In this document: positions 2,584 through 46,144 of the stretch, one piece after another
Layout: the number at the start of each line of letters is the position of its first letter
Numbering within the stretch: position 1 is the first letter of the stretch
NCBI GenBank assembly: GCA_022316685.1
Contig: JAKJHU010000614.1
Location: forward strand, 62,001 to 126,000
Direction of reading: 5' to 3'
Length of the DNA: 64,000 bases
Source of the DNA: Progne subis subis
Lineage: Eukaryota > Chordata > Aves > Passeriformes > Hirundinidae
Translations under genes and position numbers: made by a program
Notes under the pieces: model-generated
What the model was told of the DNA's origin: nothing
Database searches by the model: none
What the model saw: the letters and a program-made list of their open reading frames with translations, nothing else

Positions 2584-4165
2584 TTACCGGTGCCTCCGTT
2601 GGTGTTTGGTCAAGTGAGAGCTGTCTGAGAAGCTCTTCCCACACTGGGGACACTCGTAGGGCCTCTCCCCAGTGTGGATGCGCCGGTGGGTGATGAGGTT
2701 GGAGTTGTGCTTGAAGCCCTTCCTGCAGTCAGGGCAGCAGAAGGGCCTCTCGTCTGTGTGAATCCGCTGGTGCAGGAGGAGAACTGAGCTGGTCTGAAAC
2801 CTCTTCCCACACTCAGTACACTCGTAGGGCCTCTCCCCAGTGTGGATCATCTGGTGGACGATCAGCTGGGACCTCCGGTTGAAGCCCTTCCCACATTCCC
2901 CACACTTGTATGGCCTTTCCTCAGCGTGGATGGTCCGGTGGCAGATCAAGTGGGAGCGTTGGCTGAAGCTCTTTCCACATTGCTCACACTCGTAGGGCCG
3001 TTCCTTGGTGTGGATCCTCTGGTGGCAGATCAGGAGGGAGCTCTGTTTGAAGCTCATCCCACATTCCCCACATTTGTAGGGCCTCTCCCCAGTGTGGATG
3101 CGCTGGTGCCTGATGAGGGTGGAGTTGTGCTTGAAGCCCTTCCTGCAGTCGGGGCAGCGGAAGGGCCTCTCCTCTGTGTGAATCTGCTGGTGCTGGAGGA
3201 GAGTGGAGCTTCTCTGAAACCTCTTCTGACACTTGGGACACTCGTAGGGCCTCTCCCCAGTGTGGAGCATTTGGTGAATGATCAACAGGGACCTCTGATT
3301 GAAGCCCTTCCCACATTCCCCACACTTGTATGGCCTTTCCTCAGCGTGGATGTTCTGGTGGCGGCTCAAGTGGGAGCGCTGGATGAAGCTCTTCCCACAT
3401 TGGTCACACTGGTAGGGCCGTTCCTTGGTGTGGATCCTCTGGTGGCGGATCAGGAGGGAGCCATGGCTGAAGCTCATCCCACATTCCCTACACTCGTAGG
3501 GCCGCTCCCCAGTGTGGATGCGCCGGTGCCTGATGAGGTGGGAGTTTTGCTTGAAGCCCTTCCCGCAGTCAGGGCAGCAGAAGAGCCTCCCCTCTGTGTG
3601 AATCCGCTGGTGTTTGATCAGGAGGGAGTTCCACCTGAAGCTCTTCCCACACTCCAAGCACTTGTAGGGCTTCTCCCTGTCATGATGCTGCTCATGGACC
3701 ACCAGCTCCGAGCCCTGGCTGAAGCTCTGGCCACCTTCCTGGCACAGGGTGGGTCTTTCCTCCTTGGAGTACCCTGGAATGGGTTTGGAGCCCCTCCTCC
3801 TGCAGGATCGCTGGGGCTTTTCCTCCCCATTGGATTCGTGTCCTCTGGAACTGCTCAAAACGGCCTCTTCCACGAGGTTCTGCAGTGGGGATTTGTTCTC
3901 CCTGGTCTCCATCCTCAGCTCCTTGTCTGGGGGAGGAAGGACAAGGAGAGGATGGGATTTGCCTCCCTGCCACAGAGAAGGGGAAGGAGATTTCCCTCAA
4001 TGCATCCCGGGCAGGACGGCATCAGCAGCGGGGTTGTCCTGCAGCCAGAGGCCATGCTGGGCTGGGAGATGGAGCAGGAGAGAGGGGGAAAGGGGCACTG
4101 ACTTCCTCCTCACCTGCCTGGCTGTCCTGGGGCATCTTCCTCTTCATCGCAGCCTCCTCCTCCAT
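2584..4165 (-). CDS. C2H2 zinc-finger protein, 13 fingers (ZNF1)
   Basis: Probable DNA-binding nuclear regulator. Two coding exons: 4165-4114 (17 codons plus one base; starts [10 protein letters not shown]) and 3926-2584. The donor GCAG/GTGAGG and acceptor CCCAG/AC keep frame through a split Asp codon, giving about 464 residues. The N-terminal ~100 residues are charged, with no KRAB, SCAN or BTB motif; one degenerate finger lacking a Cys precedes 13 intact C2H2 fingers (Cys-x2-Cys...His-x3-His, 28-residue spacing) running to the C-terminus. Linkers are HTGERP, HTKERP, HAEERP and HTEERP. Fingers 2-6 and 7-11 are two copies of one five-finger block. Residues at helix positions -1/3/6 include Q/H/R, H/L/R, Q/L/I, R/T/Q, R/Q/V and T/V/L. 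A paralogue with the same exon layout lies at 31016-32386. Target DNA unknown. Confidence 0.88.
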
Positions 4166-4800: not shown

Positions 4801-6945
4801 AGTGACTGGTTTGTACTGAGCTAACTGGAGCCTTACTGGGGCAACTGGAACTGACTGGGAATGGCTGTGAGCATGCTGAGGGCAACTGGGATATTCTGGA
4901 GAGTGTCTGTGCCCATAACAGGGGGACTGGAACCACACTGGGAACAGCTGGGACCATGCTGGGGAGAACTGGGACCCCACGCTGGGGGCAACTGGGAGTG
5001 AGTGGGAGTGACTGGGTCTACACTGAGGGCAACTGGGCAGGACTGGGAGGGACTGGGATCATCTGTGGAGTGACTAGGACTATACTAGGGGCAACTGAGT
5101 GCAGCTGGAACCATGCTGGGGCCAACTGGGATCCTATTGGGATCACTGTGGGAGAGGCTAGGTCCTGCTTGGGGACACTGGGATCATACACAATCATACT
5201 TGGAGCAACTGGGACTGCACTGAGGGTAACTGGGAGTGGCTGGGAGTAACTGGGATCAGGCTGGAAGCAACTCAGTACAACTGGGAGTGACTGGGAACAT
5301 GCTGGGTGCAACTGGGATACACTGGGAGAGACTGAAACCACAGTGGGGGTAAATGGGAACAACTGGAACCATGCTAGATGATAATGGGAGTAGCTGTGCC
5401 CATGCTGGGGACCTAGTGGGAACCAGACTGGGAGTGACTGGAAAGGTGCTGGCTGTGACTGGAACCATGCTGGAGGTGACTGGGAGCAACTGGGCCCATA
5501 CTGGGAGTGACAGGGAGTCACTCTGGGCATGACTGGAATAACACTGGGAGCATCTGGGACAGACTGGAGTCATATTGGGGGTGACTGGAATGAAACTGGA
5601 GGTGACTGGGTCCTACTGGGATCATCCTGGGAGCCACTGGGATTACAGCAAGTGTGAATGGATCCTGGCTGGAGGTTACTGGGAGTTACTGGGCCCATGT
5701 TGGGAGGAAAATGTGGACACATTGGGAGCAACTGGGATCAACTGGAAGGTGCTGGAACCATGCTGAGAGGACTGAGACCACAACTGGGATCATACTGGGA
5801 GCAACTGGGACCACGCTTTGGGCAGCTGCCAGAAATTGGGATCATGCTGGAGGCAACTGGGAATTATGGGGATTGTTCTGAGATAACCAGAACCTTACTG
5901 GGGTAACTGGGATATACTGGGAGTGTCTGGAACCATACTGGGGGAACTGGAACCACACTGGGAACAGGCGGGACCACGCTGGGGACAACTGGGAGTGAGC
6001 GGGACCATGCTGAGAGGGACTGCGACTATTCTAGGGACAACTGGGATCATACTGGGAGGAACTGGGAACAACTGGAATTATTCTGGCAGCAACCGGGATT
6101 ATACTGGGATCACAGTGGGAGCAGCTGGGTCCATGCTGGGTGAGACTGAGGGTGAGTGGACTCATACTGGGATTGACTGGGAGTGGCTGTGAGCAACTGG
6201 AACCACCCTGAAAGCAACTTGAAAAAACTGTAGTGACTGGGAGCATGCTGGGGGTGACTGGGTTATACTGTGAGAGACAGGGAGCCGTAAGGATCATACT
6301 GGAGGCTGCTGGGGTCATCCTGGCATTGACAGGGAACAACTGGGATCACACTGGGGGGCACTGGCATCATACTGGGAGTGGCTGCAGTCATACTGGGATT
6401 ATAGTGGGTGTGAATGGACCCTGACTGGGGGTTACTGGGAGCTACCAGGCCCATGCTGGGAGCCAACTTGCTCACACTGGGAGAAACTGGGAGCAACTGA
6501 GAATGACAGGATGTATGCTGGTGACAGCTGGGATGTACTAGCAGTGACTGGGATAAAACTGGGGGCAACTGAACCACGCTGAGGTAACTGGGAAAGCCTG
6601 GCAATGACTATGAGAATGTTCAGGGCAACTGGGATATACTGGGAGAGCCTGAGACCATGCAGGTGGTGACTGGGACCACACTGGGAGCCACTGGGAATGT
6701 GCTGGGGGCAACTGGGGACAATTGTGAGTGATTGAGGCTCTGCTGGGACAGACTGCCATCATACTGGGAGTGACTGGGGCTATACTAGGGACAACTAGGA
6801 GAACTGGGAAAATATTGAATAAAAGTGGGTGCAACTGGGAGAAACTGGGACTGTGCTGGGGGTAAATTGCATCATAATGGGGAATGACTGGCAGTGACTG
6901 GGCTCACACTGGGAGTGCCCAGGCAACTGGAACCACACAGGGGTG
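4801..6945 (+). repeat. CTGGGA minisatellite array, 2.1 kb
   Basis: Degenerate tandem array built on a 10-12 base unit of the form ACTGGGANYA (ACTGGGATCAT, ACTGGGAGCA, ACTGGGAGTG). CTGGGA is on the plus strand here and on the minus strand in the arrays at 12,660-13,735 and 21,886-22,540. Open frames inside it are by-products. Confidence 0.9.
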
Positions 6946-8125: not shown

Positions 8126-8172
8126 ATGGCTCCAGCGCTGGGGCTGGGGGCGCTCCTGGGGGGGCGAGGGGG
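8126..8172 (+). pseudogene. MHC class I leader exon remnant
   Basis: GCCATGG start context followed by MAPALGLGALLG, which fits the signal-peptide start of avian class I heavy chains. After GALLG the sequence turns into a G-run and the rest of the leader is not recognisable. It lies on the same strand as, and 1.3 kb before, the alpha-1 exon remnant. Confidence 0.5.
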
Positions 8173-9507: not shown

Positions 9508-9673
9508 TTCTCCACTCCCTGCAGTCCTTGGAAGTGGTGGTGTTGGAGCCCAGCCTGGGGGTCCCCCAGTCCTTGATTGTGGGGACGTGGACGGGATCCC
9601 CTGTGAGTGCTGGGACAGCGAGCGGGGCCAGATGGAGCCACAGACACCGGGGATGGCAGCGGGAGCTGAGCCA
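9508..9673 (+). pseudogene. MHC class I alpha-1 exon, 5' part
   Basis: Acceptor CCCCGCAG precedes an exon reading LHSL...EP-LGVPQ and then, after a one-base frameshift near 9583, VDGIP and DSERGQMEPQTPGMAAGAEP, the conserved text of the class I alpha-1 strand and helix. The exon breaks off at GYWDRQ, where the 23-bp array starts. The exon's end reappears beyond the array and LTR (QTQ at about 10,700-10,709; LKERNQ at about 11,408-11,425). Family: peptide-binding domain of MHC class I. Confidence 0.85.
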
Positions 9674-10723
9674 GGATATTGGGACAGGCAGAGCTGGGAT
9701 ATTGGGACAGGCAGAGCTGGGATATTGGGACAGGCAGAGCTGGGACATTGGGACAGGCAGAGCTGGGACATTGGGATAGCCAGAGCTGGGACATTGGGAT
9801 AGCCAGAGCTGGGATATTGGGATAGGCAGAGCTGGGACATTGGGACAGCCAGAGCTGGGACATTGGGACAGCCAGAGCTGGGATATTGGGATAGGCAGAG
9901 CTAGGACATTGGGACAGCCAGAGCTGGGATATTGGGATAGGCAGAGCTGGGATATTGGGATAGGCAGAGCTGGGGCATTGGGATAGACAGAGCTGGGACA
10001 TTGAGATAGGCAGAGCTGGGACATTGGGATAGGCAGAGCTGGGATATTGGGACAGGCAGAGCTGGGATATTGGAATAGGCAGAGCTGGGACATTGGGACA
10101 GGCAGAGCTGGGATATTGAGATAGGCAGAGCTGGGACATTGGGATAGGCAGAGCTGGGATATTGGGATAGGCAGAGCTGGGATATTGGGACAGGCAGAGC
10201 TGGGATATTGGGATAGGCAGAGCTGGGATATTGGGACAGGCAGAGCTGGGATATTGGGATAGGCAGAGCTGGAATATTGGGACAGGCAGAGCTGGGATAT
10301 TGGGACAGGCAGAGCTGGGATATTGGGACAGGCAGAGCTGGGATATTGGGACAGCCAGAGCTGGGATATTGGGACTAGCCAGAGCTGGGACATTGGGACA
10401 GCCAGAGCTGGGACATTGGGACAGCCAGAGCTGGGATATTGGGATAGGCAGAGCTGGGATACTGGGACAGCCAGAGCTGGGACATTGGGACAGCCAGAGC
10501 TGGGACATTGGGACAGCCAGAGCTGGGACATTGGGACAGCCAGAGCTGGAATATTGGGACAGCCAGAGCTGGGATATTGGGACAGGCAGAGCTGGAATAT
10601 TGGGACAGGCAGAGCTGGGACATTGGGACAGCCAGAGCTGGGATATTGGGACAGCCAGAGCTGGGACATTGGGATAGCCAGAGCTGGAATATTGGGACAG
10701 GCAGACCCAGGATATTGAGATAG
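9674..10723 (+). repeat. 23-bp minisatellite, 45 copies, derived from MHC I exon
   Basis: Unit GGATATTGGGACAGGCAGAG plus CTG, 45 units and one partial, with a single extra base near 10,370. Variants alternate at a few sites (GATATT/GACATT, GGGACA/GGGATA, GGCAGAG/GCCAGAG). The unit encodes GYWDRQS in one frame, which is the alpha-1 text just before the array, and the last full unit reads ...GGCAGACCCAG as in a normal exon. As 23 is not a multiple of three, every frame cycles and long open frames on both strands are artefacts. Confidence 0.95.
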
Positions 10724-11393
10724 TGTCCTAGGGTGATTTTATGATGCTTGTATCCTGAGTCCTTTGTTCTGTTTGTGCTGTATATTGAGTTCTGTGCTTT
10801 TAAGACTGGTTCTAAGAGCAAGGAGAATCGCGGAATTTGTTTTGAGAGAATTGCCTGACTCCTCCACATTCTTCTCTGGACAGGGTGTTCAGTGGAGGCT
10901 TGGAGAGACTGCAGGAGAGATCTTTTTGCTTTTACTTAGTTTCAGCTAGCTAGGGCAGAGAAGTTCCCTGGACTGTATTTTTTTTTTTTTTTTTTTTTTT
11001 TTTCTCCTGGGACTGTTTAAACCTGCTCTGGACTGAAAAAACCCAGGGAAGCACTGGGGGCTGCACCTGTGGCCCACCGGGGCCTGGAGCTCGGCATTTT
11101 CCAGCAGCGCCAGAGAGACTGGGACTGATGAGAGACTGAGAGAGAGCTGAGCTCCACCCATGGCAAGAACTTTCTCAATTTGCCATCTCACTCCAGAACG
11201 AGAGGTTTTATTGTTTCATATTATTCATTCTTTGTACTTGTATGCACTTTGTTTGTTAAGTAAAATAGTTTTTTTCCATTTTTCTCCAAGGAAGTTCTTT
11301 ACTGGAGTGGTTGGGGGGAGGGGCCATTTGGGTTTGCTTCCCAGAGGGATCCCATTCAGGGGTTTTCTCCCAAATTTGCCCTAAACCAGGATA
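10724..11393. mobile_element. solo LTR with 5-bp target duplication GATAG
   Basis: 670 bases, TGTCCT...AGGATA (terminal inverted repeat, final CA changed to TA), flanked by GATAG at 10,719-10,723 and 11,394-11,398. It contains a T-run at about 10,978-11,003. A 5-base duplication fits ERVL-like elements. It sits in the last partial 23-bp unit, so it arrived after or during array growth. Orientation uncertain. Confidence 0.88.
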
Positions 11394-11429
11394 GATAGCC
11401 ACACCCGACTCAAGGAGAGGAACCAGTAC
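11394..11429 (+). pseudogene. MHC class I alpha-1 exon, 3' tail
   Basis: After the target duplication the sequence reads LKERNQ in one frame, like the LRERYNQ end of class I alpha-1, followed by GTGGCTGG as a possible donor at 11,430. Short, so supported mainly by its place 225 bases before the alpha-2 exon. Confidence 0.5.
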
Positions 11430-11654
11430 GTGGCTGGCAGTGACCTGGAGATGGGGCCGGTACACGCAGAAGAGGGGGGAGTGGAGGGAGCTGGGGGCTG
11501 GGATCTGTGGGAATGGAGGACTCTAAGGGGCTGGGATGGGATCTCTAGGGATTGGGGGGGGGATCTGTGGGGCTGGAATGGGAATCCAGGGAACTCCCAG
11601 AGGCTCTGTGGGACTGGGACACGACTCCTGGGTTCCTTCTCTCCTCATTTCCAG

Positions 11655-11932
11655 GTCTCCACATGGTGCAGGTGGTTTCCAGCTGTGACCTCCTGTCCAA
11701 CGGAGAATCCATGGATCCCATGGATCCCTGTGGCTATGACAGGTGGGATTTCATCTCCTTCCAGCTGCGATCCAGGAGCTTTGCAGTGTCTGATGGTTCA
11801 ACTGGATCACCTTGAGGTGTTGGGAATCCAAAGGGATCATGGTGGAGCAGATGAAGTATTACCTGGGACACACCTGTGTGAAAGAGCTCCCAAAATACAT
11901 CAGATATGGTTGGGATGCTGTGGAGCACAAAG
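11655..11932 (+). pseudogene. MHC class I alpha-2 exon
   Basis: Acceptor CTCATTTCCAG precedes 278 bases matching class I alpha-2: GLH...CDLLSNG, then CGYDRWDFISF, and after a one-base-type frameshift near 11,804 RCWE, then VEQMKYYLGHTCVKELPKYI and EHK. Both Cys of the alpha-2 disulphide (in CDLL and TCVK) are kept. The donor expected after GAGCACAAAG reads ATGGGTG instead of GTGGGTG, so splicing to an alpha-3 exon is lost. Length close to the usual ~276 bases. Confidence 0.85.
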
Positions 11933-12659
11933 ATGGGTGTGGGAGGGGAATTTCTATGGGAATGTGGGATTCAGAAATGGGGGGACTTGGGAAGGCCGGA
12001 ATTCCCATGGGATTTCCATGGCTGGATCTCACTCTTACCTCAGTCAGGTGAGAATTCCATGGATGGCTCTCCCCACTACCAACTGCCATGGGAATTCCAT
12101 GGGGAAATGATTTGAATCGATGACCAATCCAATGAGAGCAGTGAAATGAGAAGCAATCCCTGCTGGGATTGCATGGGACACAAACGCCACTCCTTTCCCC
12201 AGGCTGGCTCTGTTGTGCCCGTGGCAGCACCAGGGGAGTGCCCTGTCCCTGCCCTGAGCCCAGCACGAGCCTTTCCTCAGGTGTTCCCTGCCCTGCCCGG
12301 GGCAGGAGGGCACTGCCGGAGCGGCTTTGGTGGCCCCGGGCACCCAGATGGCTCCAGCCACTGCAGGTGGCTCCTTGGGAATGTTCCAGAACAAAGCTTC
12401 AAGCAAACAACACTTTGTGGAGGGGATTCTCCCCCCTTGGCCTGTGCTGGGAGCCCAAGGGCAACAGCCTGGGCACAACAGCCCAAAGTGCTGGAGCTCA
12501 GTGTCCCTGGGCCAGGCCGTGTTCCCTGGCTGTGCCCTGTCCCTCGGCTGTGCCCTGTCCCTTGCTCTGTGGGGCCGGGGGTGACAGCAGGACCCGGGGC
12601 AGCCATGGGGGAGAACAACCCTGAGCCCCAGCTGGGCCAGTCCCCCCAGTTCCCCCTGG
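11933..12659. other. unassigned, downstream of MHC I remnant
   Basis: No alpha-3 or transmembrane exon recognised. Contains GC-rich text with a small internal repeat (CGGCTGTGCCCTGTCC, about 12,533-12,570). Confidence 0.45.
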
Positions 12660-13735
12660 GTGGCCCAGATCACTCCCAACATGGGCCCTGTGGCTCCCAG
12701 TCACCCCCAGTATGATCCCATTCACTCCCACTATGGCTCCAGTCCTTCCCAGTTTGATTCCAGTGTGAACCCAGTCACTCCTAATATGGTGCCATTTGTC
12801 CCCAGCATGGTCCCAGTTGCACCTAGTCACCCAGTAAGGTTCCAATCACTCCCAGATACTCCCAGTATTATTCCTGTAACTGCCTTTATGGTTCCTCTGT
12901 GATCCCAGTCACTCCTGGTCTCTGCCAGGAAATCCCAGTTTATTTTCACTGACTCCCATTTGCTCCTAGTAGCTTCCAACATGATTTCCTGCTCAGAGCC
13001 ACTCCCAGTCAAGTCCAGCATGATTCCAGTCCCTCCTTGTATATCCCAGTTTCCTTTTCCTCAACATTGCCCTCAGCCTGCTCCCAGTCACTCCCAGTAT
13101 GATCCCAGAATGACCCCAGTCACCCTCAGTGTGCTGCCAGTTGCTCCCAGTATGATCCCAGTTGTCCCCAGCAAGGTCCCATTTCCTCCCAGTGTAATCC
13201 CAGTTGCACGGATCCAGTCACTCCCAGTATGATGTTATTCTGAAGCCATCATGGTCCCAGCTGCCCCCAGTATTGTCTCAGTAGCTCCCAGTTCCTCCCA
13301 GTCTGGTCCCAGTTGCTCTCAGTGTCCCTAACATAGACCCAGTCATTTCAAGTATGATCCCAGTATGAGTCACTATGATCCCAGTCTCCACCAGCATGGT
13401 CCCAGTCAAACCCAGTTGCCTCCAATATAGACCCAGTCACTTCCAGTCCCTCTCAGTGTGTTCCCAGTCACCCCAATATAGTCACAGACATTCCCAGTAT
13501 ATCCCAGTTGCCCTCAGCATACTCATAGTCATTCCCAGTCACATCCACTTGTCCCAGTAAGGTTCCAGTTTCCACCAGTATGATCCCAGTCACTCTCAGT
13601 CCAATCCCAGCATATCCCAGTTGGTCCCACATTGATCCCTGTTCCCCAGTTCTGATCCTGCTGTGTCCCAGTGTGCTCTGATCCTGCTCCCAGTGCACGC
13701 CAGTACCGGGCCCGGTGTACCTCGGTGTATCCAGT
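12660..13735 (-). repeat. CTGGGA minisatellite, inverted orientation
   Basis: Same family as 4801-6945 but read as TCCCAGT on the plus strand (TCCCAGTATGATCCCAGTCACTCC...). About 1.1 kb, degenerate. Open frames inside are by-products. Confidence 0.9.
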
Positions 13736-15840
13736 AGGATTCCTGCCCGACCCAAGCACTGCACTTATGGCTCCAGCATTGCTTTCCAACAAAAACAGAG
13801 GAAGGCAAACTGTGTGTAGCTCATGGTGTTTTACAGTGTCCAAAACTTGCCAAGTCATGGATATTAGAGATAAGATCCATCTGGAATTAATGGGAAGGAG
13901 AAGTAGTGCAAGATGGAAAAGGGTAGCATAGAAATAAACAGAGGGAAACATTTTGGTTTATTTCTTTTCATTTTCATTTCACTTCTGGAAAGCTGTTTCA
14001 GTTTTCCAGGAATCTTCTCCACAGTCCTGTCTGCTCTTTTCAAGAACCTTTCCTGGAGAATGAGATGCAGCTTCTGTCACAAGATGTGCCACCAACTGCA
14101 GCTTCTCTTGGCTTGCCACACCGTGTGTGCAGCACAACTCTTGCAGCAAAGCAAGATAAATGTATGGAGAACTTTACAACTTGTTCTTTCTTTTCCTGGT
14201 GGACTGGGGAGTTGTGCCATTGGTAAGGTTTTCATTACTACTGTTCTACCCTAAGAAAACATGATGGGGTACCAGGAATTGTTAGGGAATACAAGCCTGG
14301 CTGAATGCAGAGAAAGAATCTCCAGACGCTGCAGCCTGGAGTGGAGTTGTGTGAAAATCATTCCAACATTTCCATGGGCGCCTGGAAAGTGATCTAGAGA
14401 ATGAAAATGGGCTGACAGAGAGAGTTTGTTTCTGTGTTCAGTTTAGATGATTCTACATCTCTTGCATTGATATAAATCAAGAGTACAATCAGTTCATGAG
14501 AAGCACCAGAACAAGCTGAACCTCTCCAAGGAGGTGACTGAAAGAATCCGAAAAGGAAAAATGCAGGGAATGACTGGGTGAACTTGGTCTGTAAGAATGG
14601 TTATTTTTTCTAATAATTTCTAATCCATTCCCTCTGCTTTTGTCTTTCTGCAAAAGGCCATGTTCATCCCCGACGCCTCATGAAATGAGAAGCCTGAGCT
14701 TGTGGAACTGCCTGAAAGATGCCCTGTTCCTCTGCAGGGACACTCAGTCTGAAACAGGAGTCTGAGCTCTCTCTGGGGAAGCCTCCTATGAGCTGGAATT
14801 TGTTTCATGCTGGGAGAGAAGGAGGTGAGGGAGAAGGATGAGTGCTGTGTGGCAGGAGGCAATTTCTGTGATGGTCTCTTTTCAGTTGATTCTATTTCAG
14901 CAGCAGCAACAGGGCTGTGTTTGAGTGCTGCAAATGTGGCCTGTGTGGTTTTAATTCTCCTCTACTTTGTGCTCTGGGACTTGTGAACATTTGGGGATCT
15001 GCTACTCATGATACCAGAGTTTCCCATCATGAAAGCACTCTGGGTGGCACTGATCAGAAAAGGCAATTGCAGTTTTACAGATAAAAGTCAAATGGCAACC
15101 AGAGGAGGGACAAGAGCAGCCAGGATCTACAATTCTCAAGGCAAAGGTAGCAGCAGCCTCCTGCTGTTTCCACAGAGTGAGTAAAACAGTGCTGAAAACA
15201 GCGCTGGAACCCGATCCTTTCTTTCTCTGGAGGCTGGGTCAGGGCAGCACAGGCGGGCCCTGAGGAATCAGGGCTGTTTGTGGGTGATTGTTGCTCCACT
15301 CCAGCATTCAGCTGGAAAAAGCCCTTGGAAGCCAAGGCAGGAGCAGGTGGGAAGGGGCCGGCGCTGCTGCTGCTCCTGCCCGGGAGCCCCGGCTGGGCCG
15401 GGCCGGCGCCCGCTGCGCTGCGGCTCCTGCTGCTGCCAGAGCCGGGCGGGACTCGGGCACAGGGAATGGACACGGGGGGACAGCAAAGGCCTGGGCGGCT
15501 GCAGGGATGTTCGCGCTGGGGCCAGCGCCAGCACACAGCTTCAGCCGCAATGAACCCCGAGGGGAACGCTGGGGAAAGGCTCCATTTCAGCCTTTCTTAA
15601 CTCATGGCTGTGAAGGGACCGAAATGAAAGGAGAACAAGCAGGGCCCGACCCCTTCTCCTTTGGGAGGAGCCCCGTGCCTGGGGCTGTGAGGGGCCTTGA
15701 GTTATGAGGGACCATGAAGGAGCGTGGAGGTTGTAAGGACAAGTGAGGGGGCAGGAAAGACTGTGAGAGGCTAAGAGGAACCATGAGGGCTGTGAGACAC
15801 CATGAGGGCTGTGAGGGTAAATGAAGAGCCATGAAGGCCC
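13736..15840. other. unassigned single-copy-looking DNA
   Basis: No recognised exon or repeat. The piece at about 15,340-15,560 is GC- and CpG-rich with a Leu-rich frame, so it might be a promoter or first exon, but nothing identifies a gene. Confidence 0.4.
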
Positions 15841-16210
15841 ATGAGGGGCCAGAGGAGCCAGCAGAGGTTCTGTGGGGCCATGAAGGGCTGTGAGGGGCCA
15901 TGAGGAGCCAGCAGAGGTTCTGTGGGGCCATAAAGGGTTGTGAGGGGCCATGAGGAGCCAGCAGAGGTTCTGTGGGGCCATGAAGGGCTGTGAGGGGCCA
16001 TGAGGAGCCAGCAGAGGTTCTGTGGGGCCATGAAGGGCTGTGAGGGGCCATGAGGAGCCAGCAGAGGTTCTGTGGGGCCATGAAGGGCTGTGAGGGGCCA
16101 TGAGGAGCCAGCAGAGGTTCTGTGGGGCCATGAAGGGCTGTGAGGGGCCATGAGGAGCCAGCAGAGGTTCTGTGGGGCCATGAAGGGCTGTGGGGGGCCA
16201 TGAGGAGCCT
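15841..16210. repeat. 50-bp tandem array, 7 copies
   Basis: GCAGAGGTTC recurs at 15,861 and then every 50 bases to 16,161. Each unit splits into five related 10-mers (TGAGGGGCCA, TGAGGAGCCA, GCAGAGGTTC, TGTGGGGCCA, TGAAGGGCTG). Degenerate 10-mer text extends left to about 15,700 and right to about 16,275. Confidence 0.95.
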
Positions 16211-16275
16211 CAGCCCTGTCAGGAGTTGGGTCCCACCATGTCCCCAGCGCAGGGCAGCCGTGAGGGGCCGTGAGT

Positions 16276-18836
16276 GCAGACGTGGCAGCAGAGAGAGCTT
16301 GGGGCACCAACGGGAGGGGATGAGACTCTTCTCCAGCTCCAAACCACACCAAACCCATCATTAACAGGATTTTCCATCTTTAGAATCCACTGGCAACTTG
16401 GAATCAACTGCACAGTTTAATCCTGGTGGGAAAAGCAAGGGAATTTTCCAGTGAGTGAAATCCAGCCATTGTTAATAATGTCTAAGATTTCAAAGTCTTG
16501 CCAATGAAAAGTAATACTAATAAATAACAAGAACAAGAACAAGAAATAAACTCCCAAATCCCAACACCCAGCACCACACCATAATGACAAACCTCATTTT
16601 TCTTTGCTATCATAAGGTTCATGAAAACAAATCCTATTAACTTTCTCCACTTCACATCTTCCCCACCAGATAAATGAGGCCTTTTGCAGTGTTTAATACA
16701 GGTTACAGTTGAGGGCTGGAGGGAAGAACGGGGAGACACTACCAATTTCCATGTCATACCCAGCAGGCCAGCTCCAAAGTAGAGAGAATAAAATGGAATA
16801 GGGACGGGGGCTGGTCAGATGTTCCCCTAAAGGATCGCAAAATCAGCTCCAAGTGAACAGGAGGGGAAAATAAATCCCTATAAACCACCCTGTGTGTTCA
16901 GGGACTCAGCTGTGAGGAGCTGGACATGGACAGAGGCATCTGGAACAGTTCTTTCCTCAGGCTGAGCTCTCCAGTCAGGCCCTGAAGTCAATCAAGTGCT
17001 TTCCCAGAGGATTCCATGGTTGCCAACCACCCCTCCAGATGTGGCTCACAGGAGCACAGAACCTTTTTCAAGGTCAGGAGAGCAGAAAAAATGACAAGAG
17101 ATGTCCAATTCAGAGCTCTGTTTAAAAACCTGAAAAATTAAAAGTCAGTTGAACTCTGAAGCCCAGCTCTGGGCCCTGGAATCCAAAGGAAAACTGCAAA
17201 GGCTTTTTACAGGGACTGACACTGAAGAGCTAACAGATGAATGTGTGTGGCATTTTGAGAGGCTCCCAATTTTCTACATTTTTCCTTGAACTGTTGAACT
17301 TGACCCTATCTTTGCCTCCTCTTGCACTAAAGGAGGAGCCTCATTTCACCAGCCAGGAAGGGAAAGCTCATTCCTGGCCCTGGCTGCTGCTGTCCATGCA
17401 GCTTTTCCATCCCTCCCTTGGCCTCTTCCCTCAGGGTCCCCAGCAGCAGCTGCTGGAGCAGCACATGGGAGCTGCAGATGGATCTCCTGCCCACTCCAGC
17501 CTGAAGCTACAAAAGCATCCTGCTGACAGGAACCCCAATATTCCCTCCCAGGGGCCCTGGAAACACCTCCCCATCTGTTCTGTCTGCTTCGTGCAGACAT
17601 TGCAGGGAACATCCTATCTCTCCTTTGGGGCAAGGCCAGGATCCCAAATTCACACTCAAAAATGCCGGATTCTGGCCCGTTTCTGCATCTGGTGAGATGG
17701 GGCTGCAGCATTATCCAGAGAAAGTCACTGTACTTCATACTCCAGCTTGAAAACCCAACCCTTGGAAAGGGTTTTTATAAGGACCATGACTGATCGTCCA
17801 AATAAGATTAATTTTAAACTGTTACCCTTCATTCTCTGTGGCAGATTCTTCTGTGCCATGAAACACATCTTCAGTGAGACTGCAAGTACTGGGTCTGAAG
17901 CCTGCAGTAACAGAACAAAACAAAGCCAGACAGATTTCCTTATGAAAACTGAACAACATAAAAATAGTAGATGTGTTTTTCTCTTCAAGATGTTTTTGAG
18001 GGAAACATAACACATAAGACAAATTCACACTATGTGAGCGTTTTGAAAAATGGCAAGCAGGGGTTATTTTTTGAGGAATGAATAATTCTACTCGAAGTTG
18101 AAGATTAATTAAACTTAGCATTAAAACCTGTCCATGGTGCCTGCACAGGCTCTTTGCCGGCTCCTTGTGGCCTGCAAGGAGCAGCTGGAGTGCAAGAGCT
18201 GTCACAGAGGATACAGGACATGTGGGTGCAGAAGAGATGCAGCACTTGAGGACAGCTGTTTGTTGTGCTACTTGGAATTTTTTGAATAAAAACTCTATTG
18301 AACCTCAACTCCCTTGCAAGTTTCCCTTCTTTACAGGTGTGATTCAGGTGCCTGGAGCAATGTGATGGGGAGCGGACTCAGCGTGGCCAAGAGCTGAGCC
18401 CCAGCAGAGCCCTGGCAGAGCCCAGAGCAGCCTCAGCACCCCCAGAGCCCGGCTGGAAGGAGGCACTTGGAGCAGGAAGTGGCAGCAGCCCAGCCCTGGG
18501 TGCCTCTTCCTGGGACAGGACCCATCAGCCCATCCCGGAGCCAAACTGGGCCTGGGCTGCTCCCGAGGGGAATGGTGGCCCTGCTGTGGAATGCGCAGCC
18601 TGGGGGGATTTGGCCATCCTGAGTCTGGGCAGGAGCAGAGCAGGGAGAACAGTGCAGTGGTGGTGTCACTGCTGAGGACGCCTGTCCTTCTGCCAGCCCT
18701 CTTGTGGCTCCTGGGGGAGCTCAGAGTGCTGCACCCCTGTGGGCAGAGGGGCAGAGAGCCACGCTGCTCCACAGCCTGTGGACATCCTTTAAATAACACA
18801 GCAACTGAAAAATCTGTCCAGGGTGTGAGCAGCTTC
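16276..18836. other. unassigned stretch, no gene seen
   Basis: About 2.5 kb without a recognised exon or repeat. A plus-strand AATAAA (18,285-18,290) follows a short open frame at 18,165, but no family match was seen. Confidence 0.4.
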
Positions 18837-23649: not shown

Positions 23650-24005
23650 CTGCTTGGTTTCTTTATTTTTACCCCAATTCTGGGTGTTTTGATGGGATAA
23701 GCATGGGAATAATTCAAGTAGAAAAAGATCTCCAAGATTATCCAGCATTGCTTGATGCCACGAAAAGAAACAACTGGGTAGAGCAGATCACATTTTTGGG
23801 CTGTAAAGTCAACAAATCATCTCTTCACAATTAATTTCCAATGTCAGTTAGAGTCACGATGGATGTTCCTGCCCCTGCATCCATCCAGGTGCCTGTGGGG
23901 ACCCAGGAGGACGTAGAGGCCACCAGCCAGATGTCTTCTCAACCTGGATCATCAGGAATGTGGGTCACCAGGGGGGTGACCAACGTGGGTCCTCTGATGG
24001 GGATG
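23650..24005 (-). pseudogene. ZNF2 3' end, cut off by ERV-A
   Basis: Sequence homologous to the ZNF1 3' flank (GTGGGTCCTCTGATGGGG at 23,985-24,002; compare 2506-2523) stands left of ERV-A, whose other side resumes in the same ZNF text at 30,953. The piece includes AATAAA on the minus strand at 23,662-23,667, aligned with ATTAAA of ZNF1. Confidence 0.65.
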
Positions 24006-24410
24006 TGTCACCGAGATACACAAATCAATCACGCGCAGACATAAATAATTCACAAGCAGAGAACCCTCTGATTCCAGCTCACCACCTTGAGAACGGAGAG
24101 AGCAGGAAAAAGAAGGCCTCCTTGTTTATTCTTTACTTTTTCATACATTAGTGGATCTGGCAGAAGATTGGCTTTTTTTGGGTTTCCACCCCTCAGCCTC
24201 AGTGCTCAAACCCACTGTCAGTTACAGTTGTTTTTTCAGGTTAGAAATATGCAAACAAAGGACAAAGAATGAGAAACAAAGGGTTTGTTTATGTTACATC
24301 TATGGGAAAGGTAGAAAACTGCTCCTAATATTGTACAGTGACTAAAAGATCTGACTCCATTATGAATTTCAAGAAGGCTAATAAGAAAGCTCAGAAAAAC
24401 CAGGGTAATA
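24006..24410 (-). mobile_element. ERV-A 3' LTR
   Basis: 405 bases, TGTCACCG...GGGTAATA in plus orientation (last CA changed to TA). A purine-rich tract AAAAGGGTGAGA on the minus strand adjoins at 24,411-24,422. Confidence 0.9.
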
Positions 24411-24487
24411 TCTCACCCTTTTAACTTTAAAAAAAGAAAAAACAGAAAAGAAAAATGAACAAATTCACAAAGGGAATATATACAAAT

Positions 24488-27231
24488 TCAATCACTGTCT
24501 GTGGAGGAATCATCAGAGTGATCACTCGAGGATTCATCCACTTGGTGGTTTTCAAGTTGATCACGGCTTCCACCTTGCCTGTCAGCTGAATTCTGCCTCT
24601 GTGGTCGCAGGTCAGGACGGACACACTTTGAAGGTAGCCAGCGTGTCCCAGTGTCCGTGGACACACACGCATACCCTCGCCCCATAGCGATCAGGTCATA
24701 AGGTCCTTCCCATTGCTTGGTGACTAAATTTCGGACCCGTACCTTCGCTCAAGGTTGTTGCTCACCATCCGAAGCCTGCAACGAGAGATGATGGTTCAAA
24801 AAAACAGGATTATTTGAGTTCTGTGGCACCGTAAGGTGATTGATGGTGTACAAAGCCTTTGCCAACCGACTGTGTGGGGTTTCACCCTGTATTCCCCGTT
24901 TCTGCTTCTGAAGAACACGCTTGAGTGTACCATGATTGCGTTCTACAATCGCCTGTCCCGTTGGAGAATGAGGGATGCCAAAGTTATGTGACACACCCCA
25001 TGACTGTAGGAACTGCCGTACCTGCTGCGAGGCATAAGCAGGACCATTGTCGGTCTTCACAGCAGAAGGTATGCCAAGAACAGCAAAGGCCTGCCTCCAG
25101 TGGGCAATGACATCACGGGCTTTCTCTCCTGTGTGAGCAGAAGCCCACATCGCAGAGGAGAACGTGTCCACCATGACATGCACATACTTGAGCCGGCCAA
25201 ACTCGGCGACCTGGGTAACATCGGTCTGCCAAAGCTCCAAGGCTTTAACGCCTCTGGGGTTAACCCCTGCTGGCAATGGCGCACCAAGGGCATGACAATC
25301 GTCACACAACTCGACAATTTCATTGGCCTCAGTGGCTGTCAGTTGAAACTGCTTCTGCAGCGTATGAGCGTTTTGGTGGAAAAACCCATGTGATGCCTTG
25401 GCCTGTGCAAGCACATCAGGCTGGGGGGCTACCCACGCTGGGTTAGCCAACTTGTCAGCCCTTGCGTTACCTTCCGCCACAAATCCTGGCAAATTAGTGT
25501 GACTCCGTACATGCAGAACATAATATGGATGAACTCTGGCCTGAATTGCACACCACAGGGTCTTCAGTAAATTAAACAAGGCAGGGTTACTGACCTCCTT
25601 CATCACTGAACAACCCAATTGCTGCGCGATGTCGGCAACATAGGCGGAGTCCGTGATCAAATTGAAAGGTTCCTGGGAAAATTTCTCAAATGCCATGACA
25701 GCAGCCTTTAATTCAACCAGCTGGGCTGACCCATCCTCATGGCCTTCCAAAACCTTCCACTCAGATCCATCCTGCCAGGTAACAATGGCTTTTCCTGTTT
25801 TGCCCGAACCGTCAGTGAAGACGGTGGGACCTTGCACTGGCTCTTGGCTATTTTTGGGTCGTAGAGAAAATTGAGTATTTTTGGCTACTTGCAATAACTT
25901 GTGGCTAGGCAGATGATAAGTAATCTGCCCTGAAAAACCCTCGAGAGCACTTTGCAGCGAAACATTGTTCGCATAGCTCCAATCAAATTCCTCCCTCTGA
26001 ACCGGGAGTATGATCTTTGAGGGATCTGCACCCATCAATTGCAAACAGCGTTGCCGGCACTTGATTATCAAGCACGCAATCAATTCAAACAGCGCCGTCG
26101 CCGTCTTATGCAGCTGATGAGGCAGGAAGACCCATTCCAAGATGTGCAGATGATCAGTCCAATCATCATTCCATGGCCGATGATACCTGTAGGATGTAAA
26201 TCAGGAGTGGTAATGAACACAGTGACATCAATGGAAGGTTCAATGCGGTACACCTGGCAAGCCAAAACAGCTTGCTGAACCTCCTCCAGCACTTTTCGTG
26301 CCTCAGGGGTTAATTCACGAGGTGACTTTAAATCAGTATCCCCTTTCAACAAATCAAACAAGGGAGACAGTTGTGCTGTGGTCAGTCCCAAGTAAGGACG
26401 TAACCAAGTGATAACACCTACCAGCTTCTGAGCATCATTCAGTGTCTTCACCGATTGCACAAATTGCACCTCCTGGTGATGGATTGTCCGTTCCAGAATT
26501 TTGACCCCCAAATATTTCCAGGGAGGTTGTTGTTGTACCTTTTCTGGAGCTACCTGCAGTCCATGTGAATGCAGAGCATTCAACAACTGAGGCTGTATCC
26601 TCAGCAGCTCATCCTGGGTGGGCGCAGCCACCAAAATGTCGTCCATATAATGATAGACATGAGCTTCAGGAAACTGCTTGCGAACTCCAGACAAGGCACA
26701 GGCTACATACCATTGGCACAACATTGGCGAATTGCGCATTCCTTGAGGAAGAACTCTCCATTGATACCGCTGTGCGGGCTCTGCATTGTTTATTGTTGGT
26801 ACCGTGAAGGCAAATTTTGGTCTGTCATCGGGATGCAAAGGGATCGTAAGAAAACAATCCTTCAGATCCACGATGAGGACCGGCCAGTCTGCAGGAAGCA
26901 TGGTAGGCGATGGCATACCAGCCTGCAATATTCCCATGCCTTCCATCACGGCATTGATCTTTCGGAGGTCTTGTAGCAACCTCCATTTCCCAGACTTCTT
27001 TTTGATACAAAAGACAGGAGTGTTCCAGGGACTGGTAGATGGTTCCAAATGCCCCTGATCCAACTGCTCCTGTACGAGTTCACGAAGGGCGATTAGCTTG
27101 TCATGAGGGAGGGGCCACTGGTTCTCCCAGATGGGTCTGTCCACCAGCCACCGTAAAGGAGGCGTGGGACACTCTGTGCCCTTCATCACAGTGGCCCCAA
27201 TCAAAAATCCGTTCCCAATCGCACCCCCCAT
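24488..27231 (-). pseudogene. pol: ERV-A pol (RT, RNase H, integrase), broken
   Basis: Reverse transcriptase occupies 27,231-26,180 with the catalytic YMDD; RNase H follows with its acidic residues in TDGSGK, ELKAA, TDSAYV and ADKLAN; integrase has an N-terminal HHCC zinc site (ending CDDC) and the DDE triad in WQTDV, KTDNGPAYAS and VERNHG. A one-base frame change near 26,170 separates RT from RNase H-integrase. An in-frame TGA at 24,749-24,751 cuts off the integrase C-terminal domain, after which the same frame stays open to 24,488. Role in life: copying viral RNA and inserting the DNA. Confidence 0.9.
27204..27210 (-). promoter_or_regulatory. pro-pol -1 slippery site GGATTTT
   Basis: G GAT TTT is in the protease end frame and directly before its TGA stop (27,201-27,203); a -1 slip leads into the RT frame. 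It resembles the MMTV pro-pol site G GAU UUA. Confidence 0.7.
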
Positions 27232-27852
27232 GCAGCCAAAACATCCCTCCCCCAGAGGTTCTGAGCAATCTCAGCAACATGAGGCCAAATTATGGCTGTC
27301 TGTCCCTCCGGGTTCGAAACGGCCACGGGATTCTGGCTCACGTAGCATTGCTTCGTTCCTCCAAAGCCCGTGATTGGTGTCTTTCCAGGGTCAAAGGCCA
27401 CTGCGGGGGCCAAGCAGCCAGGGAGAGAATGCTCACGTCAGCTCCCGTATCTAGGAGGCCACGAAGGTGAATCTCGGATGGCGTGGCACCAACCATGGAC
27501 ACGTTACACAGCGTCTCAGGATGGTCTTTGGTCAGGACAGCAGTGCAGTGCACCTGAGGTGGCCCTGTAGAGCCGAAGCCACCATCTCCTCGTGACCGGT
27601 CCTCGGTTCTGGAAACAGAAGACTTGAAAGGAACAAGTTGAGCAATTCGTGTGCCTTTTGGAATAGTCAGAGGGGGGGTGGGTGTGGAGACCATTGCGTG
27701 AATCTGTCCTGAAAAATCCGCATCAATCAGTCCCAGATGCACTATGATACCCTGAATGGTGGCACTGGACCTACCCATCAAAAACGCGCTCATGCCATCA
27801 CCCAAGGGACCAAAGGCATCCAGGGGAACCTTGTGTATTTTGTCCGAATCAA

Positions 27853-30483
27853 TCACGACAGACTCGGCTGTGCAGACATCAACACCTGCTGAACCGCGGG
27901 TGCTGGCTGCAAGCCTACAGAGCAGATCTCCATTGGTTGGGGCTGAGGCAGAGACATTTGTTTCGGCACGCGTCTCGCCTTCGCGCTCTGCGTCGCGTTT
28001 CCCCAACTGCCCAACAGCTGACCATTCACATGCACTGTCGCCTTACACGCATTTGCAGCGTGATTTGGCCTTCCACATCGTGCACAATAAAACAAGACAG
28101 CCGTAGACTCCAGTGCCTTTCCACCCTGTTTCTTCCTGGTCCGAGCACCCCACTGCTGCTGTTGCACCCCCTGGGGAACGACCCAAGCAGGCTGCACAGC
28201 AGCAGCCACGGTTGGTTGTACGGCCACAGGCACGGTCGGCTGGACCGCCGTAGCCACCGTCGGTTGAACAATCGTAGCCACAGCTGACTGCACAGCTGTA
28301 GGCACGGCAACCACCTCTTGGCTGGAAGGTGATACCTTTGCACAGGCCCCAACCATGTCCGACATGGATGGTTCCCCGGGAAGCGCTTCAATTATCCTCT
28401 TGCAAACTGCATTGCAGTTGCCCTGGGCAAGGGGCTGAATCATGAGCTTCCTTGTTGTAGGATCACTCACCTGCTTCTCCACAGCAGCCGTCAGCCATCC
28501 TGCAAAATGCAGGAAGGGCTCATCAGCTCCCTGGACGATCGTTGCATAGGGCTGCTGTGGAGTAGCCAGCTGTAAGGTCTGAACCAGGGCTGCCATGCCT
28601 GTTTGTTGGCACTGCTCCTGGACCAAGGGATCATAACCAGCCTGCCCTTCGGCCCTGGTATAATTGCCTGTTCCCATTAGCATATCGATATTAACCATAC
28701 GCCTAGGATCACCCTGACCTAGTGCCCTATTCCGTTCCACCGCTCTGGTTGCCAGCTTAGTCCATGTGCTCTCAAAGAAGTCATATTCAACCGGTGGGAG
28801 AAGGGCTCGAGCCAAGGTCCAAATGTCAAAGGGTGTCAAAGGACTGGCATTAAAACTATGGAGAACCTGCATCACCTCAGCTGAGCCCAGACCATACTTC
28901 CCGACTGCATCACGCAGTTCTGTCAAAGCCTGCCAAACAAAGGGTTGATAGGTGTTATGAGTAGCACCCTGAAGGACAGGAAAGGCCTGAAGACCCTCAG
29001 ATGAAGCAGTAGCACCTGCCTTATCCTGCCCTGTAGACCCCACAGGGTCAGATGCAGGCACTACAGGTCCCGCACTAGCACTCAATCCTTCAACCTTAGC
29101 CTTTACTTCATCCCAGAACTGGCCGCAGTCTCTCGGCCTTACGGTCACCTGACAGGGGGGGAGTGTCCAAGCTGTTGACGACGCGCCAACAGCGCGGGAA
29201 CTTTTGCTCTTATCAAAGACCGGCCGCTTTCCAGCCGTGTCCCCGCTCGCGCTGAACTTAACCACCTCGCGGCCCGTAGCCGCCGCAACGCTCGCAGCGT
29301 GAAGCGGGGGCGGCGTCGGACTTGCCGCTGGTGTCGGGCCCGCCGCATCCACAGCAGAGCTGGAGCCCGCACCGGCTGCCAGAGACCGGTCAGATGCCTC
29401 TGCGGCAGGCACGACTGCTAGGAGGGTCGTGTCGCGTCTAATCGGAGGCGGAGATCGCGCCTCCTTCCCTGGCGGGGCTGCGTCGGTCCCTGCCGGCTGT
29501 CTATTAGAGCTGGTTGCCTCAGAGCCTCTTCCCACCCCGCGAGCACCGCCTGCAGCCCATGGGACTGGCGCGGGAGGCGGACTGTCCGGAACCCCCCCGA
29601 TAAGGGGTCCCTCGGGGGCCCAGGAGCCCGCGGCCCCCCCCAGCCAGAGCGGGGTGAAGCTGTCAGCCCGCGCAGGGGCACAGCGCCCGCCGGGGGACTG
29701 ACCGGGGCCCTGCCTCCGGCAGCATCCCGCAGCGGTGCTGGGGCAGAGGTGGCCAATGCAGCCGCCTCTGGGCCCGGGCTGGGTGGCAGGGCGGGCAGCG
29801 CAACGTCACCCGACTCCCACGTATCACTCCCACGGATACGTGACGGTCGTGCGACAAAGGAGGCAATGTATAGTAACCGAATTCTCGCCAAACGAAAGCG
29901 GAGCCCGCTTCTCCAGGCCGCCCCCCCCCATCAAAGCCGGAAAGGCATGGAGGGGAGGCGACTCCGCCCCGCTCCGGCTGCCCTGCAGAGCGGGGGTCGG
30001 CGAGACCGGCCCCGGACTCGGGGGGGCTCCGCCCCCCCTCTGCCCGAGACCAGTGCCGGAACCCGAGGGGGGAAAACCCCCCCGCGCAGGAACAGGGGAT
30101 GGAGGGGAAGAATCGCAGAGAATCTCAAGTTCAGATCCCGGATCTGAAACAATGACCCTGCCTCCTTCCAGCTCTCCGTCCCGCTTTGGAACGGGGCTCC
30201 CAGCCATCGAGCTGTAAGGGGTCGACTTAAAAACCGCTTTCTCAAATAATCTCCATTGCAAAATTAATTCTGCAATTTCTTCCTCATGTTCTATATCAAT
30301 GCAGTCTAACATACAATCCTTCATGAGATACCACTCTCGACGATTTATCACGGACCCTGGAGTGGGAAAGAACCCATGTCTCCTGCCCCATGCAAATAGA
30401 TTCTGAAGCCCGTCTTGGGATATCTGAGCATCCTTCCGCTGCAAGATATCCTCCCAAAGTTCCCAGACTAAAGAATCCTTCAT
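27853..30483 (-). pseudogene. gag: ERV-A gag, broken
   Basis: Starts at 30,483 (MKDSLVWELW), 47 bases from the primer site. The matrix-like first part ends at a TGA at 29,824; a middle Pro/Ala-rich part reads best in another frame (about 29,890-29,540); from 29,535 the first frame is open again to 27,853. That last part holds capsid with a major-homology-like region (ending about 28,440) and one Cys-His box CARCGRPNHAANAC. A VQPTVA-type repeat lies between capsid and the Cys-His box. Structural precursor of the virus core; at least two frame breaks. Confidence 0.85.
27997..28003 (-). promoter_or_regulatory. gag-pro -1 slippery site GGGAAAC
   Basis: G GGA AAC lies in the gag frame; a -1 slip enters the dUTPase-protease frame exactly where that frame opens. 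Same heptamer as the Mason-Pfizer type gag-pro site. Confidence 0.8.
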
Positions 30484-30529
30484 GATAAACAGAAACCAGA
30501 CAGAGGGGAAAGAAAACCTCACCAAAACG

Positions 30530-30547
30530 CTCCACACGGGGTCACCA
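30530..30547 (-). other. ERV-A primer-binding site, tRNA-Trp-like
   Basis: TGGTGACCCCGTGTGGAG two bases inside the 5' LTR. Its first 11 bases equal the tRNA-Trp site used by avian sarcoma-leukosis viruses; the rest has diverged. Confidence 0.7.
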
Positions 30548-30549
30548 GA

Positions 30550-30952
30550 TGTCACCGAGATACACAAATCAATCACGCGCAGACATAAATAATTCACAAG
30601 CAGAGAACCCTCTGATTCCAGCTCACCACCTTGAGAACGGAGAGAGCAGGAAAAAGAAGGCCTCCTTGTTTATTCTTTACTTTTTTATACATTAGTGGAT
30701 CTGGCAGAAGATTGGCTTTTTTGGGTTTCCACCCCTCAGCCTCAGTGGTCAGACCCACTGTCAGTTACAGTTGTTTTTCAGGTTAGAAATATGCAAACAA
30801 AGGACAAAGAATGAGAAACAAAGGGTTTGTTTATGTTACATCTATGGGAAAGGTAGAAAACTGCTCCTAATATTGTACAGTGACTAAAAGATCTGACTCC
30901 ATTATGAATTTCAAGAAGGCTAATAAGAAAGCTCAGAAAAAACCAGGGTAAC
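30550..30952 (-). mobile_element. ERV-A 5' LTR
   Basis: 403 bases, plus-orientation ends TGTCACCG and GGGTAACA. Followed by GGGATG (target duplication) and ZNF2 sequence. Confidence 0.93.
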
Positions 30953-40074: not shown

Positions 40075-40505
40075 TCTCTTTTTTTTTCTAAAAAAAAACT
40101 TTACACTCTTTTAATTTTTCTATTACTTAAATTTGTTCAAACTGCTACTTATAGAACTTAACAACTTTTAAAATTAACAAAGAAAAAATCTTAAACTTAT
40201 TTAAATCACTATTTATAAAACCTAAACAATATTTAAACTTAATAAAAAACCCTGATTCTTTTTTTCTATTACTTAAACTTATTTAAATTGCTATTCATAA
40301 AACTTACAATTTAAAAATTATTATTAAAAAAAAACCCCTTTAAACTTACTTAAATTCTTACTTATAAAAAAAACCTTAAACTATATGTAAAATTAATACA
40401 AAAAAGAACTTATACCCCTTTTTTAATATAACTATTACTTAAACATATCTAAAATGGCTATTTACAAAAACTGACTTAGGTTTACAGAAATTAACCCTTA
40501 TTGTG
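40075..40505. repeat. AT-rich degenerate tandem repeat in place of env
   Basis: Repeated ACTTAAACTTATTTAAAT, CTATTTATAAAAC text with a loose period of about 65-80 bases, about six copies, ending in a run of 13-14 C before TTTTTT (40,506-40,525). It lies between the integrase stop and the env start. Confidence 0.65.
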
Positions 40506-40585
40506 CCCCCCCCCCCCCTTTTTTGAGTTCGTTGAATATGGGAGAGGCAACTGAAACAAAAGGTTTTCACAGTCTCTGTTATCTC

Positions 40586-43500: not shown

Positions 43501-43824
43501 AAACTTTCCCTCATCTTTCTTTATGGCTAATATAGGGGTGTTATGAGGGGACATACATGGTTCTAAGATATTTTCCTTTAAAAGATGCTCAATTACTGAA
43601 GCTAGCCCTTTCTTTCCTTCTGGTGACATTGGGTATTGCTTAACTCTGATGGCGGGGGTATCTTTTTGCATTTCTATCTTAATGGGAGGGATATCTAAAC
43701 ACCCATATTTTCCCTCTGTAGCCCACACTTCTGGATTTATCTCTTGTATATCCCCTTGGGTCAGTTTCATGATATGCACAACCATTTTTCCATCTTTTGG
43801 GATAACTCCTACCCCGAGCTGCAC
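40586..43824 (-). pseudogene. pol: ERV-C pol, broken
   Basis: RT and connection are intact for 467 codons (43,824-42,424) with YVDD active site and the LPQGYTESP motif. RNase H continues 42,281-41,865 (YTDSRYAFG) in a separate piece. Integrase zinc domain (HWGTQGLCDHFL...CIIC) and first catalytic Asp (QIDFTEMP) are in 41,705-41,400; the rest (SDRGPHFT, VERMNK) is in 41,392-40,586 after a frame change near 41,393. The integrase end WTHITRVKGP and tail are kept. Gammaretrovirus-type enzyme set. Confidence 0.9.
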
Positions 43825-44141
43825 TTGTAAGGTCTCTGCCTAGTAAATTGGTTTCTGTATGTGGTAAATAAAGAAAATCAGCTACACAGTGCTTTGAGTT
43901 CCCTTTAATCTCTACTCCTTCAACTATTAATGCTCGAAAGGGCCTCCCTTCAGCCCCTAACACTTCACAAGTTTTTGTCCCGATTGTCACCCCTGTTGGT
44001 AATTTCCTTAAACTCGATCTAGTCAGCTCCTGTGTCTACTAAGAATTCATATTCTTCACTTTGGGGACCCACATCAAAGTTTACTAGAGGCTCATCTTGT
44101 TGTTCTATTGGGTCCCCTATTTTATAGAGCCTCTGACACCC
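43679..44141 (-). pseudogene. pro: ERV-C protease, broken
   Basis: Follows the gag TAG. Active site VDTGAD is at about 44,020-44,035; a frame change right after it moves the rest (ALIVEGVEI, NLLGRDL) into the frame open at 43,990-43,679, and another near 43,835 leads into the RT frame. Aspartic protease that would cut Gag and Pol. Confidence 0.8.
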
Positions 44142-46077: not shown

Positions 46078-46144
46078 TTTCTTTAAACTGAAAATAATTT
46101 CAAAGGTGCCCTTTACTAACTGGCAACACAGGTTTTTTTGGTTT

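Follow-up and report, generated by a model that had tools for sequence, protein, structure and literature searches.

The origin of minisatellites has been called "very difficult to study" (PMC3389668, introduction). A 23-bp tandem array lying within an MHC class I gene of Progne subis subis raises this question at a single locus: did the array arise from the exon that surrounds it, or was it brought in from elsewhere? We addressed it in one 64-kb stretch of genomic DNA (64,000 nucleotides, hereafter the window) and in protein records of related birds.

An array between two arms of a class I exon

According to a unit map, the array consists of 46 head-to-tail units of 23 bp on the plus strand. 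It comprises 45 whole units (9674-10709, unit 31 having one extra base) and the first 14 bases of unit 46, which together span 9674-10723; the last unit ends at 11399-11407. TRF reported positions 9674-10717, with a period of 23, 45.3 copies and 92% matches. Being made of imperfectly alike, head-to-tail units within the 10-100 bp range, the array is a minisatellite. On its left, the exon text can be seen directly to pass into the array without a break. The left arm of exon 2 (alpha-1), up to the founder codons, occupies 9508-9673 on the plus strand. The end of unit 46 together with the right arm (T-R-L-K-E-R-N-Q-Y-V-A-G-S-D-L-E ...) occupies 11399-11481 on the same strand, with an approximate 3' end. 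The left arm (36 aa) matches residues 29-63 of the PDB chain 7zqi_A (E 3.2e-06, 30.1 bits), with a weak additional match to residues 3-23 (E 0.2). Joined together, the two arms match residues 29-78 of this chain without any gap at 39.1 bits, i.e. 9 bits more than the left arm alone. The right arm alone had no match in PDB, and none of three exon 2 pieces was recognised by Pfam. Furthermore, positions 11455-11481 of the right arm resemble the tail GRYNQNRGS of an Agelaius protein, P0009 (5 mismatches in 27 nt; none of 1000 shuffles as good). These matches on both sides show that the array is flanked by the two arms of a single class I exon 2, in agreement with the sequence-only reading of this DNA, which had placed it inside an alpha-1 exon.

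The unit is the exon segment AGCC(A)GGATATTGGGACAGGCAG, which covers the codons E-P-G-Y-W-D-R-Q. Of all 23-bp segments of the exon, AGCCAGGATATTGGGACAGGCAG and its one-base shifts come closest to the unit in a cyclic comparison. This founder (9669-9691, plus strand, placement free by one base either way) differs from the observed unit by two mismatches, or by one if its CCA was once CCG. Once the founder is removed, the nearest match in the exon has at least 8 mismatches, and the best match among 500 dinucleotide shuffles of the exon has 5. This shows that the unit derives from the exon segment, as had been proposed. Several details of that proposal have to be amended. The unit had been described as the DNA encoding GYWDRQ plus CTG: its exon origin stands, but the CTG is the exon's own Pro codon and not a foreign addition, so that the founder is 23 bp of exon, Pro codon included, rather than 20 bp. 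The sequence GGCAGACCCAG, taken for the exon continuation within the last unit, ends unit 45; one more unit follows and the exon resumes at 11399. Likewise, 10,680-11,430 had been given as the exon side of the array, which is true of the right arm from 11399 onwards and not of 10724-11393, an LTR-like insert. Finally, the 45 copies that had been counted correspond to a real array, with 46 units once the one split by the insert is included.

The difference between founder and unit may reflect the loss of a CpG. The ancestral CCG would have decayed to CTG in the units, whereas the exon kept a copy that decayed to CCA. In GAGCCGGG, the sequence of the unit boundary with its Glu-Pro-Gly codons, a C to T change on one strand would yield the AGCTG of the units, and the same change on the other strand the AGCCA of the exon copy. 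Peptides of relatives suggest this route, since P0009 (Agelaius) and P0011 (Tichodroma) read S-R-D, as expected of an undecayed CGG, where the window and zebra finch read S-W-D (TGG). The present-day array contains no CpG.

The founder is also associated with an imperfect 10-bp direct repeat, whose left member GCTGAGCCAG lies at 9665-9674 (plus strand) and whose partner GCAGACCCAG lies today at 10701-10710 and was 23 bp away in the single-copy exon. In a founder region rebuilt from the exon arm, a single unit and the last bases of unit 45, the best 10-bp match at a lag of 23 is 8/10, a value reached by 276 of 20,000 mononucleotide shuffles. This is a modest indication of a direct repeat one unit apart in the founder, as in minisatellites born at noncontiguous repeats.

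The best explanation of the locus, and in our view a highly probable one, is therefore a tandem duplication of a class I exon 2 segment at an imperfect direct repeat, followed by growth of the array. Slipped-strand mispairing or microhomology repair would have made a tandem copy of the 23-bp segment bounded by the two repeat members. Since 23 is not a multiple of 3, this duplication broke the alpha-1 reading frame, and the dead exon would then have been free to expand. Unequal exchange or slippage could have brought the array to 46 units here and to at least six in the zebra finch copy, and an LTR-like element would have entered the last unit after this growth. Slippage as the first step, and the order of these events, are what we infer from the present arrangement.

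Array-like peptides in other passerines

A 160-aa exon 2-exon 3 query returned 16 proteins and an exon-plus-array query 18, nine of them new. The resulting set includes 25 proteins (P0003-P0027), of which 24 (all except P0016, which bears no source name) come, by their source names, from genera that we take to be passerine. By eye, array-like peptide is present in four of them (P0003, P0009, P0011 and P0014). Fifteen (P0004, P0005, P0008, P0010, P0012, P0013 and P0019-P0027) run on with T-Q, T-E or similar exon sequence, P0006 starts like ordinary exon sequence and then departs from it, and five (P0007 and P0015-P0018) do not show the site. In the zebra finch MHC record P0014, the exon 2 left arm is followed by six units' worth of array peptide, and P0011 (Tichodroma) and, more weakly, P0009 (Agelaius) carry about two. 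Relatives with fewer or no copies, to which the sequence-only reading had looked, are thus found at the protein level. The copy number differs between species, from 46 in the window to at least 6 in zebra finch, the latter being a minimum like those of the other relatives since all are protein records, in part automatic gene models that may splice through the array.

We evaluated whether the array, with the unit variants present in the window allowed, could encode such peptides, using those of nine of the 25 proteins and a truncated version of one of them. For zebra finch, P0014 required 7 mismatches in 138 nt (14 without variants) and P0003 none in 45 nt (3 without variants); for Tichodroma, P0011 required 5 in 57 nt (6 without variants). 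None of 2000 shuffles was as good in any of these three cases. The Agelaius peptide P0009 required 4 mismatches in 45 nt, equalled by 1 of 2000 shuffles (7 mismatches and 8 of 2000 without variants), and the fit of five ordinary class I controls was no better than that of shuffles. An array-only protein query gave one significant protein among 6066 candidates, P0014, and did not return P0003, P0009 or P0011, each of which carries just about two units. Such a query is hence blind to short arrays, misses untranslated ones too, and leaves room for short arrays elsewhere. The zebra finch tail that follows the array resembles the right arm of the window weakly: 12 of 1000 shuffles were as good for DPAQRRELAHG, 94 for AQRRELAHG and 744 for RRELAHG. 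Array-like peptide is present at the matching exon site in these other passerine records, and the array does not seem to be private to the window genome.

Trees were built from short, hand-cut rows and rooted at midpoint only. In the exon 2 left arm tree (21 rows), the window falls into a group together with P0003, P0009 and P0014 (96/92) and Tichodroma joins next (81/76, not starred), so that the five array-bearing rows form one group. In the exon 3 tree (14 rows), the window's lineage of seven rows is separate at 100/99, and P0011 from Tichodroma falls outside it, beside P0015b (99/97), on the ordinary class I side. Taken together, these trees imply either that the duplication predates the separation of two relic lineages or that it happened more than once. 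An array born independently in several class I lineages from fragile exon sequence would account for the position of P0011, which carries array-like exon 2 peptide on the ordinary class I side of a 100/99 split. We regard this as improbable while giving it real weight, since the exon 2 tree unites all five array-bearing rows, at just 81/76, and a T at unit position 12 appears to be implied in the zebra finch and Tichodroma peptides too. P0015 itself, from Hirundo, is one predicted protein whose exon 3 pieces come from two different relic class I lineages, an arrangement suggesting that both lie close together.

Unit variation, the inserted element and other repeats

The 46 units fall into 17 distinct types. 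The type adjoining the exon (units 1-3) ties with one other as the commonest, with nine units each. Variation mainly concerns unit positions 4 (T/C, 28 versus 18), 12 (C/T, 28 versus 18) and 15 (G/C/A, 27, 18 and 1), and units differ pairwise by 9.6% on average. Compared with shuffled orders, neighbouring units resemble each other more at lags 1, 2, 5 and 6 (1, 3, 8 and 1 of 2000 shuffles as good), are borderline at lags 3 and 4 (108 and 86 of 2000), and show no excess at lags 7-10. Such likeness of close neighbours is typical of local slippage or unequal exchange. Assemblies often give tandem arrays the wrong size, so the copy number in the window might be an artefact of expansion or collapse; 17 unit types in a patterned order are unlike simple stuttered assembly, and the array peptide is present in other species too, which makes this very unlikely.

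Units with C at position 15 (10341-10686) account for 13 of the 23 units in the right half of the array and 5 of the 23 in the left half. One 92-nt stretch of such units folds into CAGC/GCTG hairpins on either strand (z -1.95 and -2.16; 5 and 8 of 200 shuffles as good), and one stretch of units with G at this position shows no such folding (z 1.73 and 2.03). Hairpin folding as a driver of expansion was dropped, because the zebra finch units are all of the C type but only six were seen.

Unit 46 is of full length overall, is the most divergent of the array (6 differences from the consensus) and is interrupted by a 670-bp LTR-like insert, TGTCCTAG...CCAGGATA, at 10724-11393 on the plus strand. 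Unit 45 ends in ACCCA, the insert cuts unit 46 after 14 bases (10710-10723), and beyond the insert this unit finishes (11399-11407) and the exon resumes. The insert is bordered by a target-site duplication GATAG (10719-10723 and 11394-11398, plus strand) and has a terminal inverted repeat of 6/8. From these terminal repeats and the target duplication, it can be read as a putative solo LTR; no second copy was found in the window, where it had T-run matches only. Since it splits unit 46, the insert is younger than this unit.

Other repeats lie in the window. On either side of the class I relic, at 4926-6129 and 12695-13323, there are loose tandem arrays of 10-53 bp that share an ACTGGGA core (TCCCAGT on the opposite strand). 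A second minisatellite, at 15828-16209, has a 50-bp unit (7.7 copies, 97% matches) and is more uniform than the 23-bp array. A 61-bp unit is repeated 3.2 times (97%) at 47061-47252, near retroviral-like reading frames. Endogenous retrovirus-like reading frames are located on the minus strand at 24000-30600 and 40500-46100, and a 21-bp tandem element that occurs at both 24018 and 30562 points to a pair of long terminal repeats. A 442-aa open reading frame at 2584-3912, minus strand, looks C2H2 zinc-finger-like by eye.

The consensus of the array unit has 42 matches at up to three mismatches in the window, all of them within the array (mean of 0.00 in 100 dinucleotide shuffles); elsewhere in the window the best cyclic match has 4 mismatches. 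The uniqueness of the array is to be read within the window and the protein records, a search of IMG/VR viral contigs (0 matches) being uninformative for a bird repeat. An alternative is that the class I relic received a minisatellite or satellite already dispersed in the genome, whose likeness to the exon is due to chance. This would be in keeping with the many other short tandem arrays of the window, some with the ACTGGGA core, and is nevertheless hardly credible: the unit consists of codons of the exon itself at their own place, the two exon arms adjoin each other in 7zqi_A, nothing in the window outside the array comes within three mismatches, and the array-only protein search, within its limits, returned the MHC record alone.

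The class I relic and the probable birth of a minisatellite

Alpha-1 and alpha-2 sequences of an MHC class I gene are present at the locus, with Pfam matches for exon 3 only. Upstream, an exon 1 remnant (8126-8158, plus strand) encodes the signal peptide start MAPALGLGALL, the same 11 residues with which P0012 and P0013 (Pseudopipra and Pipra class I) begin. The exon 2 left arm has a one-base frameshift near 9580, where relatives read SLIVGDVDG in a single frame. The exon 3 (alpha-2) relic (11655-11934, plus strand, ends approximate) has a frameshift near 11804 followed by a stop. Its two pieces match PF00129 MHC_I at E 0.00026 and 0.0027, each under the curated cut-off, and the second one matches PDB class I chains with a best E of 2.5e-09. 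No C1-set (alpha-3) domain was reported in the three plus-strand frames of 11650-17600, in a scan of low sensitivity that scored the known exon 3 at just E 0.23 and 0.04 and could hence miss a decayed alpha-3. On the plus strand, 11651-17600 also gave a weak match to a PA domain (E 0.0067, below the curated cut-off), in a frame translated with X at its stops. No intact class I reading frame with alpha-3 and membrane parts was found.

The left arm and array (9508-10723) contain 10, 10 and 6 stops in the three frames. Because of these stops in all frames, of the exon 2 frameshift and of the exon 3 frameshift that runs into a stop, the class I gene is a dead relic. The earlier statement that 45 copies interrupt the peptide-binding domain was therefore overstated for a gene with other lesions; gene death had been missed there, as had the 670-bp insert with its 5-bp target duplication and the array in other species. 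The array might instead be a coding VNTR within a class I-like protein that is expressed, its length altering a secreted or truncated alpha-1 product. This reading could draw on the zebra finch models P0003 and P0014, which pass through the array peptide without a stop, and on the insensitivity of the alpha-3 search. It is rejected as scarcely tenable, since every copy shifts the frame, all three frames over left arm and array hold stops, exons 2 and 3 carry frameshifts, and no C1-set domain was reported in the plus-strand frames of 11650-17600. The array probably has no present function, and none is supported by our data.

In the coding VNTRs of human MUC1 and DRD4, the unit is likewise exon sequence, and these VNTRs keep frame and are expressed, whereas the 23-bp unit described here breaks the frame and sits in a relic. 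The guppy minisatellite is reportedly mitochondrial. Like the present array, it has a long unit founded on single-copy DNA, with an imperfect direct repeat one unit apart (as cited in PMC3389668); the founder here is instead an exon of a nuclear immune gene. Similarly, minisatellites derived from transposable elements such as Alu have a unit that is an internal piece of a recognisable sequence (PMC3389668), whereas the founder here is a protein-coding exon. Passerine class I pseudogenes, such as that of the zebra finch clone TGAC-86I22, are likewise unexpressed class I remnants in the repeat-rich songbird MHC (PMC2907588). The description of that remnant covers a piece of the 3' UTR and a short part of exon 3, and the terms "minisatellite" and "tandem repeat" do not occur in the main text of that paper (PMC2907588). 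In our literature search, whose coverage leaves out most subscription journals, no title or abstract start described an array in an MHC class I exon. A minisatellite founded on local single-copy DNA is of a known kind; this one stands out by how complete its record is and by its location in a gene of antigen presentation.

For annotators, the passerine class I-like gene models P0003, P0009, P0011 and P0014 call for caution, as they hold what look like array translations and not protein. It is conceivable, if rather doubtful, that an ancestral class I gene was inactivated by the 23-bp duplication itself, before the divergence of the main passerine families, and that the relic lineage has been kept since; its descendants and kin would then form a natural series (no array, about 2, at least 6 and 46 units) that records how a single nuclear minisatellite was born, aged by CpG decay and grew. 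The founder, the breakpoints, the homology at the founder and several states of the array all appear to share one homologous exon, so that ordinary comparative sequencing can test how a nuclear minisatellite began and first expanded.
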